Assembly (NCBI RefSeq): GCF_004804355.1
Contig: NZ_SRWZ01000003.1
Span: 372,001-436,000, forward strand
DNA length: 64,000 nucleotides
Origin: Cognatitamlana onchidii
GTDB taxonomy: Bacteria; Bacteroidota; Bacteroidia; Flavobacteriales; Flavobacteriaceae
Direction of reading: 5' to 3'
The position numbers and the translations under genes are program-made. Positions 19,371-27,291 of the stretch are shown in pieces. Each line of letters begins with the position of its first letter. Positions within the stretch are counted from its first letter, which is position 1. The notes beneath the pieces are model-generated. The model was given only the letters and a program-made list of their open reading frames with translations. It was not told the origin of the DNA and did not search any database.

Positions 19371-20711
19371 ATGAAAAAAAATATTTTTTACTTAGGCCTT
19401 TTATGCATTCTGTTGCTGAATGGGTGTCAAACTAAAACAACAAAACAAACACCTACTGTGAAGCACAATGGCGTTAAAGCCAAGTTGGAACTCTTAGAAG
19501 CCAATGAGCAGTTCATTCAGAATTCAGAAAAAGGCGGTATCCCTCACGCCAAGTGGGATGCTCCAGAGTATGCTGCGTATAGCTTTACTAATGCCTACAA
19601 ATACACACGTCATTACCGAATTTCACATGGCGTGCTGGGTGCTTCCGAGGCCGTACTTACTCCAGAAGTATTAGAAGTTACGAATACACTTAATCTTAAA
19701 CAGTTAAAAGCTTATGATGCTGATCAGGAACTGGATCTTGAAACTTTGTTAAGAGAACGGTTAAAGAATCATTCCATGGTTATTATCAAAGATGATAATA
19801 TTGTACATCAACACTTTTGGAATGGAATGGACAACAACGCTACTCACTTAGATATGACTGTTACCAAATCGTTTACTTCAATGTGCGCATCAATTGCGGT
19901 TAAAGAAGGTAAGCTCGATATGAGCAAGCAAACTACTAACTATTTACCTTATCTTAAAGAAACTGCATTCGATGGTACCACGGTTCAAGAAGTTGCCGAC
20001 ATGCGCACAGGATTGGATATTCCAACCCCAGAGCACCTGTCATGGGACCCGAGATTTACCTTGTCACAAGAGTGGAATGGTCCTAATGATAGCGGCCTAT
20101 TTGGAATATCTGAATACTTAAGTCTTATTAAGGATCGAAAGTACCCCATTGGTGAAAAATACCAGTATCAAGACCCTAATACAGAAGTGTTGGGTATGGT
20201 GGTAGAAATAGCCACAGGAAAAAACTTGGCCGACTATTTTCAAGATAAAATGTGGACCAAACTTGGTGTAGAAAACGATGCTTTCTGGATGGCCGATCCC
20301 TCCGGATATGTTGTTGCTTCCGGCGGTTTAAATATGACAACTCGCGATTTAGCCAGAGTAGGCAAAATGCTACTTAATGATGGAAACAATTATATTGGTG
20401 AAAACATTATTCCAAAGGAATTTATTGATGCGATTTGGGAAGGGAATGAATTAGTTCGCAACGCTTGGAAAGACAGTAAAGAAAGTCATTTAGCTGCTGA
20501 CGCTTGGTATAAAGACCAATTTAGAATACTGAACATTAAAGGCCATAAACTTCTATGCATGGTTGGTATTCATGGGCAGGTAGTGGCTGTAGATAAAGAC
20601 AAAAATGTAGTAATTACCATGAATAGTGGCTATACACAAACAGAAACTCCTCGTATGGCCAACCTTATTTTTTACCAGACGTTACCGACAATTTTGAATG
20701 AATTAGACTGA
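19371..20711 (+). CDS. Beta-lactamase/S12-family serine-hydrolase-like lipoprotein with Thr at the nucleophile position
   Basis: A 446-residue predicted lipoprotein (signal peptide ending LLLNGC, acylated Cys at about 19). The class C beta-lactamase/esterase fold is indicated by the SxxK-region segment TVTKSFTSMCASIAV near residue 163, a YQYQDPNTEVLG segment in the place of YxN, and GIHGQVVAVD near the C-terminus like the HxG motif. In relatives the first motif reads S-x-T-K; here the DNA clearly encodes ACT GTT ACC AAA, so Thr replaces the usual Ser. It may be inactive or may use Thr. It stands alone between the cassette and a 400-nt spacer. Confidence 0.78.
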   Translation: MKKNIFYLGLLCILLLNGCQTKTTKQTPTVKHNGVKAKLELLEANEQFIQNSEKGGIPHAKWDAPEYAAYSFTNAYKYTRHYRISHGVLGASEAVLTPEVLEVTNTLNLKQLKAYDADQELDLETLLRERLKNHSMVIIKDDNIVHQHFWNGMDNNATHLDMTVTKSFTSMCASIAVKEGKLDMSKQTTNYLPYLKETAFDGTTVQEVADMRTGLDIPTPEHLSWDPRFTLSQEWNGPNDSGLFGISEYLSLIKDRKYPIGEKYQYQDPNTEVLGMVVEIATGKNLADYFQDKMWTKLGVENDAFWMADPSGYVVASGGLNMTTRDLARVGKMLLNDGNNYIGENIIPKEFIDAIWEGNELVRNAWKDSKESHLAADAWYKDQFRILNIKGHKLLCMVGIHGQVVAVDKDKNVVITMNSGYTQTETPRMANLIFYQTLPTILNELD

Positions 20712-21117: not shown

Positions 21118-22455
21118 TCAAAGTCCCCACATAAAACCCAAAGACACTCTATTTCTATCTTTAAACTGTCCGAAAAGTTGATTTTCATTTCCGTAAAAAA
21201 AGCTACTTTCTAAATGCAGCCGAACTGAAGAATTCATCCAATACCCAACTTGCGGTCTGATATAGCCGTCTCCATGATTGTAATTATGACCCCATAAAAC
21301 GTCAAGAGTTAAATTATCGTTCATCATCTCTTGCTGCAATTTTAACGAGGTATTTGTTTCAAATCGATCTCTATTATATGCCGAGATATCGTCGGTAATA
21401 ACATCACTAAACAATTGAGCACTAATTACATGTTCACCCTTTACATAATCAACTCCAAATGCGGACTTATAAACATTTGATATTTGTACCCCATTACTAA
21501 TAATAGGATTAGTAGTTATAAAATTTTGATTAAAAACATACGCCAATTCAGCTCTTAAAGTAGAAGAACCTATTACCTTATTCAATGTTCCTCCTATTAA
21601 ATGTTGCCTTTCATATTCTGGTGTGAATATAACACTTGGTCCGTTTTCATTATCTAAATCTAATCTATTGTAAAATGCTGGTAAATCGTCATAATAATAA
21701 AAGTAATTTACCGAAACATCCCACCCTTTGATAAAGGAACTAAGCTTAAAACCATAATCAGAGTCTTCTAAAAACCGATTTGGTCTTTTGGGTCGCCTAA
21801 TAATTGTTGAAATACCATCAGGCGGTTTTGGAAATATACTTGAAGTAAAGAAAGGCGCATCAAAACTAGGGATAATATGATATGTATTATCAGGAACCCA
21901 AACCAACTGTACTCCAATATTGAGAATATTAAATTCACTTTTTGCGGACCATAAGGGTATTCTACTATCTTCAAAATCATCCAGAATAAATTCTCTGAAA
22001 TTTTGCGGATTAACAACGTCTAAAAGTTTTAATCCATCTGTTTCTCCCCAAACGATTTGTTGTTTACCCAGCATAATTCTTAGGTTTTTACCCACTTTAG
22101 CATGATAATAAAGTTCCCTTAACTCAAGATTCGTTCGGTCTCCAATAAACAAACGTCTACTAAACTTAGAAGCAGAATAATCCTTAGATTTCCCTGGTTC
22201 TAAATTATCATTCAATTCTGAATAAACCTGGCCAATTAAGACTAGTTTAGATGCATGATTAATGTGATATTCAAATCTTGGCTTTAAAACTATTTCCGAT
22301 TTCTGCATTTTATTTCCTTTAAATTCATAGGAAAAATCTGTTAATGCAACCAAGCTTGCCTTAAAAGCATCTTTAAATTTTCTTCTATTTGCTTGGGCAT
22401 TAGTTTTTATGCATAAAAGCAGAACTGTAATAACTAAGCTAAACGTTCTAAACAC
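21118..22455 (-). CDS. Predicted outer-membrane beta-barrel protein (DUF1302-like)
   Basis: A 445-residue protein with a signal peptide (FSLVITVLLLCIKTNAQA). Alternating aromatic strands follow, with repeated WGE/GKQQIVWGETDG and GWDVSVNYFYYYDD, and it ends in a strand typical of barrels (RVSLGFMWGL). Layout and the GKQQIVWGE motif fit DUF1302-like proteins, often found with an MMPL/RND exporter and a LolA-like lipoprotein carrier, as here. It is probably the outer-membrane component of that export set. It is the last gene of a five-gene left-pointing operon beginning with marR. The cargo is unknown. Confidence 0.72.
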   Translation of the reverse strand: MFRTFSLVITVLLLCIKTNAQANRRKFKDAFKASLVALTDFSYEFKGNKMQKSEIVLKPRFEYHINHASKLVLIGQVYSELNDNLEPGKSKDYSASKFSRRLFIGDRTNLELRELYYHAKVGKNLRIMLGKQQIVWGETDGLKLLDVVNPQNFREFILDDFEDSRIPLWSAKSEFNILNIGVQLVWVPDNTYHIIPSFDAPFFTSSIFPKPPDGISTIIRRPKRPNRFLEDSDYGFKLSSFIKGWDVSVNYFYYYDDLPAFYNRLDLDNENGPSVIFTPEYERQHLIGGTLNKVIGSSTLRAELAYVFNQNFITTNPIISNGVQISNVYKSAFGVDYVKGEHVISAQLFSDVITDDISAYNRDRFETNTSLKLQQEMMNDNLTLDVLWGHNYNHGDGYIRPQVGYWMNSSVRLHLESSFFYGNENQLFGQFKDRNRVSLGFMWGL

Positions 22456-22495
22456 AGTTATTTTTTATTAGTATGTTGTTTCTTGAAATGTTTTC

Positions 22496-23299
22496 TTAGA
22501 GTCCGTTGACTAAAGCTTCTTTAGTGAAAGTATCATCACTAATATTTGTCTGATAATCAATATCACTATTTAAGAATATGGTTTCATGGCCAGTCTTGTG
22601 ATTTTTGACAAAGATTTTATGATATGTCCAAATACCTTGAACTTGTTTAACATCTGTTATTTCAATTGTTTTTAAATGATTTTGAGCAACATCCCAACTT
22701 TCAGCTTTTCTAAGCATCCAAATCTTAGCATCAATCCAAAATTTCACTTTTCCATAGCCCAATTCTTTGGCAATTTCTTTCGTTTTTGGTGTACCTTCAA
22801 CAATAAAACATGCTTGCCCTTTAATAATTTCTTTACCAAGGGTTTTGTAATTATAATCGTCTAAACTAATTCGTGTTTCTAACTTTATATCTTCATAAGT
22901 AAGGTCGGTACCCAGAAAATAATCCCCTCTATTAGCTGCGGAAATTCGTCGTGTTTTCCGTAATGCAGGCATATACAACCATTGGTCATCATCTACAGAA
23001 GCATTTGGATAATCATAGGTTAAAAATGCTGTTCCTTGAACGCTTCTTGGTGTTTCGTAAAATATGGCGAGACGCTTTTCTTTTCCATAGTACTTTCTTA
23101 AAGAAATAGTCTCTCTAATTCTAACTTTACCACGCTTATCTTTAAGCGCCATGGTTAGCTTTCTTTTCATTGAAATCCCCTCATTTCTTTCATGTGTTTT
23201 TTCGGCAATATGCTGCCCTAATGGTAAATTTTGAGCATTAGTTGTTGTACTTAATATTAGCATTAGCACTGTTACTGAAATAATTTTATATGTTTTCAT
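22496..23299 (-). CDS. Outer-membrane lipoprotein-sorting (LolA-like) protein
   Basis: A 267-residue periplasmic protein with a signal peptide (VTVLMLILSTTTNAQ). It has the LolA/LolB-like half-barrel pattern of the RND-associated family: MKRKLTMALKDKRGKVRIRE, then PRSVQGTAFLTYDYP, DQWLYMPALRKTRRI, GTDLTYEDI and a KVKFWIDAKIWMLRKAE strand. These proteins are thought to carry lipid-like cargo between an MMPL exporter and the outer membrane. The gene lies 27 nt after the MMPL gene. Confidence 0.82.
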   Translation of the reverse strand: MKTYKIISVTVLMLILSTTTNAQNLPLGQHIAEKTHERNEGISMKRKLTMALKDKRGKVRIRETISLRKYYGKEKRLAIFYETPRSVQGTAFLTYDYPNASVDDDQWLYMPALRKTRRISAANRGDYFLGTDLTYEDIKLETRISLDDYNYKTLGKEIIKGQACFIVEGTPKTKEIAKELGYGKVKFWIDAKIWMLRKAESWDVAQNHLKTIEITDVKQVQGIWTYHKIFVKNHKTGHETIFLNSDIDYQTNISDDTFTKEALVNGL

Positions 23300-23326
23300 A
23301 ATCTAAATGGTTTACTATTAATTCTA

Positions 23327-25657
23327 TTACTTGTTAATGTTGAAAAATTTGGGTTTGCTCACCAGAACTATTGCTGGTAAAAGTGTCATGCTACCAATAA
23401 AGCTAACAGACACAGCCACTGCAACTAGAAACCCAAACTTACTAAGTGGTGGCACTGAACTTGTCATTAAAACACTAAATCCGAGCGCTAAGGCTAGAAA
23501 ATTAAAGAGCAAAGCACGTCCAGCAGATTTGTAAAACTCTGAATAAGCCTGTTTAACTGGTAAACCTTGGTCATTTAAAAGAAACTTTAACCTATCAACT
23601 GTATGCACCGCAAAATCAACGCCTATTCCAATAGCTATCGCAGCAAACATTGAAGTGCCAACGGCCAACCAGATATTTAGTAATCCCATAACTGTATAAA
23701 TAAACAGTACCGAAATAGATACAGGAATAATGGTTAATAAGCCAGCGGAAAAAGACCTAAAACTTAAAGCACTAACCAATAACACAACCAATAATGCTAA
23801 TCCTGCGCCTAAAAAATGATTGAAGCCTAAGCGATTTATCCAATATGCATCTACGGTAACTTTCCCTGTGGTAGTTGCCTTTATAGTATCGCTATTAAAA
23901 TTGTTACCTAAGTACGAATTTATAGCGTCTACAACAGGTTTCTCAAATTCGTACTTACCTGTATCCATACGTAACCTGATATTAGCAAGACGATAATCGT
24001 AGTCTACATAATTATCAAAATCGGTTGGGTCTCCACTTGCAGAATACAGTAAAAAGTATTGCGCTATTAAATCCTTGTTTTCTGGAACCTTATAATATTC
24101 TGGATTGTTTTCATGTAACGATTGATTCATTTTTTTTAGAAAATCTACAATCGAAATGCTTCCTTTTACATGAGGTAAGGTTTCTGCATAATATTGTAAA
24201 TCTTGTATTTTCTGAAGATTATTAGGTTTGAAAATATCTTCATTTTCTGGAGTTTCTACATAAATATCTAGATAAGACGTACCATCTGTTTTCGAATTAA
24301 TTATGGCATCAGCTTTAACAATAGATTCATCAGACTGAAAATTGGTAATTCTATCTTCATTTATTTCTAACTTAGACGCCCCATTAATTCCAAATAAAAT
24401 AATTAGAAAAGCAACGGCCAATATCACTCTAGGATATTTGATAACCAAAACACCAACAAATTCCATTATTTTGCCAAATCGGTCTACCTTTTGGTCGGAC
24501 TTATAAGCCTTGCTAGTTTGAGGTTTTACAAGCATCAAAGCAGACGGAATAAAGAAAACTGCATAAACCAAAGCAGCAAAAACGCCTAAGGCTCCAAATA
24601 AACCAAAATAGGTCATTGGCGGCATATATGAAGATGCCGAAACTGCCAAAAATCCTGCGATTGTGGTTATGGAAGTTATTACAATGGGACGCCACATATT
24701 TACCATGGTGTGCATTACTAGTTCCTTTTGGGAAAACTCAGGGTGCATTGAGGTAGCCTCGTAATATTCACCTAGAATATGAATGCCGTCTGCTACAGCA
24801 ATAGCAATGAGTACTACTGGTAAACCGTTGGTAATTACATAAAAATCTACACCAAATGCAGCCATGGTACCCAATGCAATTCCGACAGAGGCTAACACCA
24901 TAATATTGGGTATCACTACACCTCTTAACCTGCGATACGCAAAAATTAAAATGATGGAAATAACGACTGCTGCAAATGGATTTGTTTTCATCGCATCTTC
25001 ATCAATATACTTTATCAAGTAACCACTTACAGCACCTTCTCCTGCCAAATACAGTTTTGAATTATTCGGTTGATAGGTATCTAATAGTTTAATTAGGCTC
25101 TTATAAACTTCATGTTGTTTTTTATCATAAGTGTCAAGCATTTCTGCAAGAATAAGCGTAGTGGTATGGTCTTTTGATACTAAACTTCCTTGATATAACT
25201 CAAAATCATTAATAGCATGTTTAACGTCTTTAGCTTTATCATTAGATAATTCATCAATTTCGTAAAAGGGGTTGACCTCTAAACCATCTTCTGTACCTAC
25301 AATATTGTTTTCGGTATACAGGCTGGTTATTTGGTCTGGGTCGATACCTTTTACAGTCTTTAAAGCATCACTTAATTCCTGAACTAATTTTAGTGTTTTG
25401 GTATTAAACACGCCATTTTCATTAACTATAGCAATAACCATAGGGTCTTTTAATCCAAAAACTTCTTTTGTCTTATTTCTAAACGTAAGAATAGGGTCAT
25501 CTTTAGGCAAGAATGCATCATAACTTGTGTCTTTAGTCATTTTGGGGATAAACAAGGCACTACATATAATTAGTGCGGCACTTATAAAAAGAATAACTTT
25601 GTGATGAGAAGTTACATAGTTAAAAAATGAAACTACTGTGTTGTTTTGAGTTTTCAT
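23327..25657 (-). CDS. MMPL/RND-superfamily exporter
   Basis: A 776-residue inner-membrane protein with two repeated halves, each with one N-terminal helix, a large periplasmic domain and a cluster of helices (around 230-385 and 620-770). Motifs include VLIAIAVADGIHILGEY and its counterpart FAAIAIGIGVDFAVHTVDRL, the Asp-containing TM segments of the proton relay. Relatives export lipids, hopanoids or sterol-like compounds. It sits between an SDR gene and a LolA-like gene under probable MarR control, so stress-induced lipid traffic or efflux is a reasonable inference. Confidence 0.88.
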   Translation of the reverse strand: MKTQNNTVVSFFNYVTSHHKVILFISAALIICSALFIPKMTKDTSYDAFLPKDDPILTFRNKTKEVFGLKDPMVIAIVNENGVFNTKTLKLVQELSDALKTVKGIDPDQITSLYTENNIVGTEDGLEVNPFYEIDELSNDKAKDVKHAINDFELYQGSLVSKDHTTTLILAEMLDTYDKKQHEVYKSLIKLLDTYQPNNSKLYLAGEGAVSGYLIKYIDEDAMKTNPFAAVVISIILIFAYRRLRGVVIPNIMVLASVGIALGTMAAFGVDFYVITNGLPVVLIAIAVADGIHILGEYYEATSMHPEFSQKELVMHTMVNMWRPIVITSITTIAGFLAVSASSYMPPMTYFGLFGALGVFAALVYAVFFIPSALMLVKPQTSKAYKSDQKVDRFGKIMEFVGVLVIKYPRVILAVAFLIILFGINGASKLEINEDRITNFQSDESIVKADAIINSKTDGTSYLDIYVETPENEDIFKPNNLQKIQDLQYYAETLPHVKGSISIVDFLKKMNQSLHENNPEYYKVPENKDLIAQYFLLYSASGDPTDFDNYVDYDYRLANIRLRMDTGKYEFEKPVVDAINSYLGNNFNSDTIKATTTGKVTVDAYWINRLGFNHFLGAGLALLVVLLVSALSFRSFSAGLLTIIPVSISVLFIYTVMGLLNIWLAVGTSMFAAIAIGIGVDFAVHTVDRLKFLLNDQGLPVKQAYSEFYKSAGRALLFNFLALALGFSVLMTSSVPPLSKFGFLVAVAVSVSFIGSMTLLPAIVLVSKPKFFNINK

Positions 25658-25666
25658 AATTGAATT

Positions 25667-26458
25667 TTATAATGTTTTTCTTAGAACTTTTTTAAATACC
25701 ATTCCAAAAGATTTTGTGTTAAGTTTTCGGGAGAAGAGAAATTTTCCGCTAGAAAAAAGAAATTTATTTACACCACCAGGAATAACGACACGTTTTTTGC
25801 CTAAAGCCTTAAGTGCTTCTGTAGCTACAAAAGATGGTTCTAAAGGTTTAAATGGCGTTCCTTCAAAATCATAAACACTAGCTAAATCTGTTGCTGTAAA
25901 ACCAGGTGTTACTGCTAAAACATCAATATTATGTTTGCTAAATTCTGCTGAAATACCTTCGGAAAAAATCAGGTTATATGACTTTGTTGCGGCATAATTT
26001 GATATGTAAGGCACGCCTTGAAAAGCCACAATCGAGGACATGTTTATAATTCCACCTCTTTTTCTAGTTACCATTTTGGACCCAAAATGATGTATTAATT
26101 GTAGAGGCGCCTTCACATTTAAATCTATAGTATTTATGTGCTCTTCTGATGTGACACTTAAAAAGTCATTAGAATCTTCACGACCAGCATTGTTAATAAG
26201 CAACCCTACTTCAAGGTCTTCAGTAAACTGTAAAACATTAATAATGTCGTCATGATTTGTTAAATTGGCTACAACCACTCTAGCGCTAATATTAAACTGC
26301 TTTTCTAAGCTGCTCGTTAATTGATTTAACTTGTTCTCATTTCTTGCAACGATTACTAGATTAAAACCTGCAGAAGCTGTTTTTTCTGCAAAGGCTTTAC
26401 CTATTCCAGACGAAGCCCCAGTTATTAGAGCCCATGGTCCATATTTTTTTGTATTCAT
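25667..26458 (-). CDS. Short-chain dehydrogenase/reductase
   Basis: A 263-residue NAD(P)-dependent oxidoreductase with the classical SDR set: cofactor motif TGASSGIGKAF near residue 14, NNAG near 90, catalytic Ser in NMSSIVAF near 140, and the YAATK pair near 155. Family size is normal. I place the start at the ATG 26456-26458 (MNTKKYGPW), because the upstream frame to 26488 runs through the palindromic MarR site. The substrate is unknown; in this operon it may modify the compound exported by the MMPL system. Confidence 0.88.
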   Translation of the reverse strand: MNTKKYGPWALITGASSGIGKAFAEKTASAGFNLVIVARNENKLNQLTSSLEKQFNISARVVVANLTNHDDIINVLQFTEDLEVGLLINNAGREDSNDFLSVTSEEHINTIDLNVKAPLQLIHHFGSKMVTRKRGGIINMSSIVAFQGVPYISNYAATKSYNLIFSEGISAEFSKHNIDVLAVTPGFTATDLASVYDFEGTPFKPLEPSFVATEALKALGKKRVVIPGGVNKFLFSSGKFLFSRKLNTKSFGMVFKKVLRKTL

Positions 26459-26470
26459 CTTTATTGATTT

Positions 26471-26488
26471 ATGTTGTATATACAACAT
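26471..26488 (-). promoter_or_regulatory. 18-bp perfect palindrome, probable MarR operator 1
   Basis: ATGTTGTATATACAACAT is a perfect palindrome in the gap between marR and the SDR gene. Nearly the same site is found upstream of marR (26945-26960). It lies 13 nt upstream of the SDR start codon. Confidence 0.7.
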
Positions 26489-26504
26489 TTAGATTAAATT
26501 TTTT

Positions 26505-26906
26505 TTAATTTAGTCTTTGTTCTAAAGTCTTTAAACCCGATAAGCCTTCTTCCCCGAGAGTATCACATAGATTAGTCATTAGTGATTCCCAAATCGGTAA
26601 AATTTGTCTTAATAGTACTTCTCCCTGCTTAGTCATTTCTATTTCTGGTCGGTAAGCCATGGTACGTGATACCACTCCCCTGTTCTCCAACAATTTTATA
26701 TTTCTACTCACAGTAGAGCGTTCTAGAAAAAGCGTTTCACCTATTTTGCCTTGTTCCGTTTTCCCTAACTTAGACAATGCAAACAAAATACTCAACTGAC
26801 TTTCAGTAATATCAAAATCCTTGAGCATTATTCTAAATTCGTTATCTACAATGCGTGATAAACATCTTAGCCTATTTCCAATACATTGTGTTACGTCAAA
26901 CTTCAT
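26505..26906 (-). CDS. MarR-family transcriptional regulator
   Basis: A 133-residue winged-helix protein with the MarR pattern: DITESQLSILFALSKLGKTEQGKIGETLFLERSTVSRNIKLLENRGVVSR, then the wing and a C-terminal dimer helix. MarR proteins usually repress neighbouring genes and release DNA upon binding small aromatic or lipophilic ligands. Two copies of the palindrome TGTTGyATATACAACA flank this gene, one just upstream of its own promoter and one before the SDR gene, strongly suggesting autoregulation and control of the envelope operon. Confidence 0.9.
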   Translation of the reverse strand: MKFDVTQCIGNRLRCLSRIVDNEFRIMLKDFDITESQLSILFALSKLGKTEQGKIGETLFLERSTVSRNIKLLENRGVVSRTMAYRPEIEMTKQGEVLLRQILPIWESLMTNLCDTLGEEGLSGLKTLEQRLN

Positions 26907-26928
26907 TCTATTTGTTTAAATGATGCTA

Positions 26929-26962
26929 CAAATATATAAAAATATGTTGCATATACAACATA
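26929..26962 (-). promoter_or_regulatory. marR promoter and operator 2
   Basis: On the minus strand a -7 element TATATTTG (plus 26929-26936) lies 22 nt before the marR start. Immediately upstream stands TGTTGCATATACAACA (26945-26960), almost the same palindrome as operator 1 and with longer flanking symmetry TATGTTG/CAACATA. A repressor here would cover the space between -33 and -7. The site is shared with the divergent DUF1905 gene. Confidence 0.65.
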
Positions 26963-26991
26963 AATTATTATTTTTACTTAAAATTGAGCAA

Positions 26992-27291
26992 ATGCAAGCT
27001 AAAATTAATTATAAGTTTTCTGCCAATTTGTGGAAAGATACATCATCTGGAGGATGGGTTTTTGTCTCATTACCTAAAAATATCTCAAAGGAAATTAGAG
27101 ACAACCTTAAATGGCAAGAAGAAGGATGGGGACGCATGAAAGCTTCTGCATCAATCAAGAATGTTGAGTGGGACACGGCAATTTGGTTCGATACCAAAAC
27201 GGATACCTATTTATTACCAGTTAAGGCTGTAATAAGAAAAAAGGCCCATTTAGAATTAAACGATTTGATTAATGTAAGCATTTCGATATGA
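26992..27291 (+). CDS. DUF1905 domain protein
   Basis: A 99-residue protein with the DUF1905 pattern: INYKFSANLWKDTSSGGWVFVSLP, then WGRMKASASI and FDTKTDTYLLPVKAVIRKKAHL. DUF1905 is a small beta-rich domain of unknown function often found alone or before a YdeI-type domain. I chose the ATG at 26992 because the longer frame from 26920 includes the palindrome and marR promoter. It is divergent from marR and overlaps the start of the following Crp/Fnr gene (ATGA). Confidence 0.78.
   Translation: MQAKINYKFSANLWKDTSSGGWVFVSLPKNISKEIRDNLKWQEEGWGRMKASASIKNVEWDTAIWFDTKTDTYLLPVKAVIRKKAHLELNDLINVSISI

Follow-up and report, generated by a model that had tools for sequence, protein, structure and literature searches.

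On the minus strand of a 64,000-nucleotide stretch of the Cognatitamlana onchidii genome (contig NZ_SRWZ01000003.1 of assembly GCF_004804355.1, positions 372,001 to 436,000 of the forward strand; hereafter the window) lie five closely spaced genes encoding, in order, a MarR-family regulator, a short-chain dehydrogenase/reductase (SDR), an MMPL-family transporter, a LolA-like carrier, and a DUF1302 beta-barrel. The surrounding genome comprises 3.4 Mb in 12 contigs, with a completeness of 99.94%. A first-pass annotation had claimed five co-directional genes in the interval 21118–26962 and this was borne out, both by the positions of the open reading frames (ORFs) and by the Pfam matches of all five products, which score above the curated cut-offs. 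The genes are separated, from marR to the barrel gene, by gaps of only 46, 9, 27, and 40 bp, a spacing that supports their co-transcription. The features of the operon, in window coordinates, are as follows.

26944..26961, minus strand: operator 1, ATGTTGTATATGCAACAT; the TTG at 26958-26956 is the -33 position of the marR promoter.
26929..26936, minus strand: -7 box TATATTTG of the marR promoter, of the form TAnnTTTG, 19 bp after the TTG.
26505..26906, minus strand: marR, MarR-family regulator, 133 aa (PF01047, 36.3 bits against a cut-off of 24.6).
26471..26488, minus strand: operator 2, the perfect palindrome ATGTTGTATATACAACAT, between marR and the SDR gene.
25667..26458, minus strand: SDR, 263 aa, accessory (adh_short, 142.4 bits against 26.6).
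23327..25657, minus strand: MMPL-family RND inner-membrane transporter, 776 aa (PF03176, 113 bits against 20.5).
22496..23299, minus strand: LolA3-type periplasmic carrier, 267 aa (LolA_like, PF17131, 185.7 bits against 30).
21118..22455, minus strand: DUF1302 outer-membrane beta-barrel, 445 aa, GTG start (PF06980, 57 bits against 23.2).

The interval's end at 26962 falls just beyond operator 1. Note that the ORF listed for the SDR starts with an ATG at 26488; because this ATG sits within operator 2, and because the start of the corresponding gene in the related locus L039 agrees with 26458, we set the SDR start at the methionine at 26458.

A search with the MMPL protein returned 22 loci, 15 of flavobacterial type (L039–L053, with MMPL identities of 67–90%) and 7 distant (26–30%), and further searches added L089 (MMPL 71% identical, from another family of the same order). 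The window together with L039–L053 and L089 makes up the orthologous set of 17 operons counted below. (L010 and L011 were left out of the counts because they are apparently the same operons as L039 and L042.) Record titles assign these close relatives to Flavobacteriaceae (Algibacter, Aquimarina, Lutibacter, Kordia, Flagellimonas, and others) or simply to Bacteroidetes. The order marR-MMPL-LolA-DUF1302 is kept in all 17 operons, whereas only 3 of them have an SDR gene in the marR-MMPL interval. The five-gene order that the first-pass annotation expected to see conserved is thus rejected as a unit, and conservation holds for the other four genes. Outside this core the most recurrent neighbour family is again the SDR family, found in 5 of 16 loci, followed by response regulators (4 of 16; the label is our own reading). 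Response-regulator-like genes adjoin marR upstream in L048 and L051 only, where two linked genes immediately before marR (L048:4602-6460 and L051:4770-6486) resemble by eye a sensor kinase and a response regulator.

The trio of MMPL, LolA, and barrel genes is also found in 6 of the 7 distant loci (the contig of the remaining one, L060, stops shortly after LolA) and in 9 of the 16 loci L090–L105; among the 7 of these 16 that are without the full trio are L091 and L097, where the available stretch stops near LolA. TetR-like genes, recognised by eye, lie upstream in most distant loci, and a match to the window MarR is listed in none of them (the 7 loci and L090–L105). Several Bacteroidota loci (L092–L096 and L099) have two TetR-like genes upstream, as read by eye, and an additional gene, with a product of about 190 aa, that separates MMPL from the carrier; the product of the one in L096, the sole one scanned, is YtfJ-like (PF09695). 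In L101–L104, which belong to one family, the MMPL relative adjoins a conserved 219-aa protein starting MNFKKITYS.

Control of the operon by MarR, as claimed by the first-pass annotation, is strongly supported by the DNA around marR. In particular, an 18-bp palindrome (ATGTTGNATATNCAACAT) is found upstream of marR in all 17 operons with at most two mismatches, placed in each at the -33 position, and MarR is predicted to bind it. The -33 triplet is TTG in 15 loci and TAG in L049 and L050. It is followed after 18–21 bp (19 bp in 12 of the 17) by a TAnnTTTG box, the Bacteroidota -7 consensus; this box is perfect in 15 of the 17 loci and carries one mismatch in the other 2. When the same best-of-six-spacings test was applied to 34,000 random positions, 116 perfect boxes (0.3%) were found, with 7% of positions within one mismatch; the corresponding values for shuffled downstream DNA were 1.2% and 15%. 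The promoter lies 126–237 bp ahead of marR in L041, L042, L045, and L052, and 37–55 bp ahead of it elsewhere.

A further copy of the operator follows marR in every one of the 17 loci (21 copies in total, 16 with the fully symmetric core GTTGTATATACAAC). Operator 2, the only place properly searched for internal promoters, has no sense -7 box within one mismatch behind it in any of the 21 copies (five copies have a box with two mismatches). On the antisense strand, a TTG-N18 -7-like box (mostly TAAATTTT) is present within one mismatch at 12 of the 21 copies, against a background of about 15% in the operator 1 shuffles; the box is absent in one clade and does not have the final G. The conserved AAAAATTTA-like tract ahead of operator 2 (window 26489-26504 and its equivalents) reads as this antisense box. 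Exact matches to the operator core GTTGNATATNCAAC number two in the window genome, both at the operon, and three in genome G019, all at its operon; genome G017 has one at its operon, where the other copy has one mismatch, and one elsewhere. A wider MarR regulon is therefore unsupported in the window genome. With up to one mismatch allowed, the core has 18, 19, and 17 matches in the three genomes, as compared to 12, 19, and 15 for a reversed-pattern control. (Searches for E. coli-type sigma-70 promoters, with 27 found and 29.2 expected, and for terminators, with 4 found and 3.1 expected and none of the 4 behind the barrel gene, were uninformative.)

The genes that flank the operon are on the opposite strand and encode a beta-lactamase-like protein (19371-20711) and a DUF1905 protein (26920-27291). 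Operator 1 also faces this divergent DUF1905 gene, as it does in L039 (L039:5367-5684), and a -7 box lies 19 bp on along the DUF1905 strand (TACTTTTG, perfect, in L039 and TATTTTTA in the window), so the DUF1905 gene may be MarR-controlled in both genomes. In L043, marR stands opposite another, divergent MarR start whose N-terminus is similar (the two are at L043:9-83 and 140-541); they share the operator between them, which has a perfect -7 box on each strand.

What lies between marR and MMPL differs from clade to clade. The three operons with an SDR there (the window, L039, and L040) form a single clade of the MMPL tree (support 100/99), and one single gain of the SDR is therefore likely. 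A distant member of the SDR family (26–28% identity) is encoded downstream of the barrel in L046 and L050, to which we give little weight since SDRs are common. In L043, from Lutibacter, marR and MMPL lie 1334 bp apart, and between them are genes for a 94-aa protein that matches no Pfam family and for an alpha/beta hydrolase (PF00561), the pair being bordered by an operator copy at each end. The gap in L042, L045, and L052, which form one clade (95/98), is 186–237 bp with two operator copies. (Between the two copies, short ORFs of about 23–38 aa are seen by eye, which may be remnants or small proteins.) The gap is about 44–71 bp and gene-free in L041, L044, L046–L051, L053, and L089. The first-pass annotation had proposed a possible full route from a cytoplasmic enzyme to the outer membrane. 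The inner-membrane, periplasmic, and outer-membrane parts of that route stand, represented by an MMPL protein with an invariant aspartate, a LolA3-type carrier, and an Occ/AlgE-like barrel; the SDR as its integral first step does not, given that in 14 of the 17 operons no SDR gene separates marR from MMPL, and we regard the SDR as an optional cargo of the exporter operon.

The MMPL protein is matched by PF03176 in two stretches. Residues G677 and D681 are found in 37 of 37 aligned homologues and D290 in 31 of 37; by analogy with the family, these residues would lie in transmembrane helices 10 and 4 and would have the role that they have there. Among solved structures, MmpL4 is the best match (E 1e-7), and HpnN (5khn) matches at E 6e-4. 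Moreover, in two Bdellovibrionales metagenome-assembled genomes the MMPL and LolA_like parts form one open frame of 1046 and 1070 aa (L055:6992-10132 and L056:6983-10195), a fusion that argues that MMPL and carrier act together, albeit from assembled metagenomes in both cases.

The carrier also matches DUF1329 (PF07044; 50.1 bits), in a region overlapping the PF17131 match. Its structural model (predicted local distance difference test, pLDDT, 78) has as its best match the P. gingivalis LolA3 structure 9tp6 (E 1e-25, 34% identity), and the next matches are DUF1329 and lipoprotein-sorting structures (DUF1329 4z48, E 5.6e-22). In a survey of PF17131, the family was found in 50 of 118 Bacteroidota genomes, that of the window included, and 30 high-scoring loci were examined, with the carrier motifs and the FtsX label being our own reading. 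A WxYxPAxxKxxRI-like signature occurs in 6 of the 30 loci, and MMPL adjoins the carrier in all 6; five of these are the window or were known from the MMPL search, so that only L133 is independent. Of the remaining 24 loci, 21 have the motif PSMMxQSWxGxD, with an FtsX-like permease motif nearby in 18 of the 21, and 3 have neither (L138, with MMPL- and barrel-like frames, is among these). P. gingivalis LolA3 (WLYLPAxxKxxRI) and the fused Bdellovibrionales proteins likewise show the first signature or one close to it. Because the signature is common to MMPL-linked carriers and P. gingivalis LolA3, we predict that LolA3 works for an exporter of the MMPL-barrel kind. The main texts of PMC11885536 and PMC13103446 do not contain the words MMPL or RND, and the portions available assign no function to the structurally solved LolA3. 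A literature search found no link between PGN0947, which is P. gingivalis LolA3, and PG1179.

When the barrel model was compared to known structures, Foldseek returned general porins with TM-scores of 0.3–0.5, and VIA-align placed OpdO, OpdK, and other Occ porins at the top with Z-scores of 20–21 (OpdO: Z 21.2, root-mean-square deviation 3.1, 289 residues), followed by AlgE entries (Z 17.9–19.6), at sequence identities to Occ/AlgE proteins of about 7–11%. The predicted fold thus resembles those of Occ/OprD and AlgE porins. Those porins have 18 strands; the model has 21 strand elements, some of them short or in low-confidence parts.

The operon is rare. The carrier is found at E<=1e-60 in 6 of 397 genomes of the family, and MMPL at E<=1e-100 in 4 of 395 genomes of the order and at E<=1e-70 in 14 of 395 genomes of the phylum, the window's own genome being included in each count. 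Moreover, the relationships among carriers do not follow those among hosts. Genome G097 shares 92–93% RpoB identity and 85–86% carrier identity with G019 and G262; the latter two share 98% RpoB identity with each other and a carrier identity of 82%, lower than that of G097 to either. The congeners G017 and G260 have RpoB proteins 97.7% identical and carriers 66% identical. Records named Algibacter are split over both MMPL clades, as are those named Aquimarina. This discordance with RpoB and the split genera point to horizontal transfer of the operon rather than vertical housekeeping. Plasmid carriage was considered and rejected: 19 plasmid records match MMPL, all at less than 60% identity, and among the 15 matches listed identity is at most 29.6% and none is flavobacterial. 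No tRNA that could mark an integration site was found within the 64-kb window.

We consider it probable that these genes form a self-contained unit which is repressed by MarR and exports a hydrophobic or amphiphilic compound across the envelope. Bound to the palindrome at the -33 position of the marR promoter, and to the second palindrome past marR, MarR would keep the operon off until a ligand released it, or oxidation of Cys8, a residue that is invariant in all 17 operons and may act like that of OhrR-type sensors. MMPL, which would be powered by protons through its conserved membrane aspartate if that residue acts as in the family, would extract the compound from the inner membrane, or from the outer leaflet of that membrane, and pass it to the LolA3-type carrier, which would in turn deliver it to the porin-like DUF1302 barrel for release at or beyond the outer membrane. 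Where present, the SDR would probably reduce a carbonyl group of the substrate. We infer that MarR senses the exported molecule. The first-pass annotation had suggested a modified lipid or a lipophilic compound as substrate; the patchy, horizontally moving distribution of the operon and its AmeABCD and AphS relatives, described below, suggest instead a hydrophobic compound encountered only from time to time. The operon has the character of a mobile resistance or export module and not of core lipid housekeeping.

Several observations weigh against this exporter reading. The MMPL protein scores 229 bits against the HAE3 model TIGR00921, under the cut-off of 351.9, and a second periplasmic protein of the AmeC type is absent from the five window genes, the part of the genome scanned for it. 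Some relatives are short of the full set (L101–L104 have MMPL alone, and L105 has a carrier with no barrel recognised), and the gene order in L100 is barrel-MMPL-LolA. The barrel model has a mean pLDDT of 73.8, with residues 136–164 under 50, and Wzi, LamB, and OmpT score nearly as high against it as Occ porins and AlgE. Finally, Occ porins usually serve uptake, and the same parts could import.

Import is, in our estimate, unlikely. The barrel would admit a hydrophobic nutrient (for example an aromatic, a sterol, or a terpene), which the carrier would then bring across the periplasm and MMPL would let in; the SDR would start its breakdown and MarR would be a catabolic repressor. The predicted barrel fold, nearest to Occ/OprD/BenF-like channels, would suit such a route, as would HpaR as the best NCBIfam match of MarR, yet that match scores 40.8 against a cut-off of 121.2. 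The operon contains no degradation pathway, however, the enzyme is absent from its place in 14 of the 17 operons, and characterised MmpL/HAE3 pumps are known to export. A cluster with DUF1329 and MMPL genes in a benzene culture has been discussed as possible transport, and deletion of a Delftia DUF1329 gene impaired growth on phenanthrene (PMC13101534), both of which favour uptake, whereas a mutant lacking AmeABCD accumulates more dye (PMC6394551).

Less likely still is an export function by which a modified lipid or pigment made by the cell itself ends up in the outer membrane, in the manner ascribed to HpnN for hopanoids or to the flexirubin locus with LolA2. MMPL does have weak similarity to HpnN and to Patched/sterol-sensing proteins, but falls far under the HpnN cut-offs (NF052374, 41.7 against 1100 bits; TIGR03480, 81.3 against 751.85 bits). 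LolA-type carriers bind acyl chains and SDRs occur in lipid synthesis, which would also fit. Against this, genes for lipid or polyene synthesis are absent from the operon, any one neighbour family is shared by 5 of 16 loci at most, the SDR is missing from its place in 14 of 17, and the operon is rare and has a dedicated MarR. An extra lipoprotein-sorting (Lol) route, suggested by the family name 'outer membrane lipoprotein-sorting protein', is highly improbable given that no LolCDE or LolB is found among the operon genes (the part of the genome scanned for them), that the closest solved carrier, P. gingivalis LolA3, binds LolB only weakly (PMC13103446), and that FtsX-like ABC permeases adjoin the other type of PF17131 carrier.

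Returning to the exporter, a more speculative and rather doubtful extension is that the marR-MMPL stretch is a regulated cargo slot, that operator 2 is a MarR roadblock, and that Bacteroidota LolA3-type carriers are MMPL-DUF1302 shuttles. Copies of operator 2 would then mark spots where accessory genes are gained or lost (the SDR in one clade, the small protein and alpha/beta hydrolase in Lutibacter, and a short ORF in a third clade), and a single mobile MarR-exporter chassis would be re-fitted with chemistry for each compound. With a roadblock, marR would be transcribed and the pump would not, operator 2 having no recognisable sense promoter; and as shuttles, these carriers would not be lipoprotein carriers. 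More generally, DUF1302, DUF1329/PF17131, and MMPL proteins recur together across several phyla, and this locus ties them to one dedicated switch, with natural MMPL-carrier fusions among its relatives, and predicts partners for LolA3. The exact operator offers a ready reporter for the ligand, and hence perhaps for the substrate.

As for known systems, the pump belongs to the same MMPL/RND family as HpnN and MmpL4, neither of which is known to be partnered by a LolA-like carrier together with a DUF1302 barrel. No publication on the flavobacterial MarR operon was found in a literature search that left most subscription papers and all preprints outside its coverage. The flexirubin locus with LolA2/LolB2 (PMC11885536) likewise has a LolA-like carrier in a dedicated locus, but the window operon lacks polyene synthesis genes and LolB; a LolA-like export cluster has also been described in Borrelia (PMC13078400). 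In P. gingivalis, PG1175-PG1181 encodes a TetR regulator, MMPL, an outer membrane lipoprotein-sorting protein, and ABC subunits, and TetR-MMPL-carrier operons of P. gingivalis and P. intermedia belong to the iron stimulon (PMC10434189). There too MMPL adjoins a carrier of the same family as the window carrier, whereas the TetR control, the iron stimulon, and the ABC subunits set that operon apart. The AphS/AphT-controlled COG4447-COG1033-PF07044-DUF1302 operons of Betaproteobacteria, proposed to help in coping with toxic aromatics (PMC6449761), have the same three transport families as the window operon but are embedded in aromatic degradation, have other regulators, and include COG4447.

The closest characterised kin is AmeABCD of Castellaniella defragrans, a hydrophobic-compound exporter made up of a DUF1302 protein, a DUF1329/LolA-like protein, AmeC, and an HAE3 RND pump, without which cells tolerate monoterpenes less well and, when de-energised, accumulate more Nile Red (PMC6394551). 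Both cassettes combine an HAE3/MMPL pump, a LolA-superfamily periplasmic protein, and a DUF1302 protein, and the window operon, like AmeABCD, is probably inducible. They differ in that the pump gene is last in AmeABCD and first among the transport genes in the window, and in that the window operon is MarR-controlled with two operators, has a PF17131-type carrier, and carries an optional SDR. The window operon is likely a variant of such a cassette, a type that is known but has been little studied.

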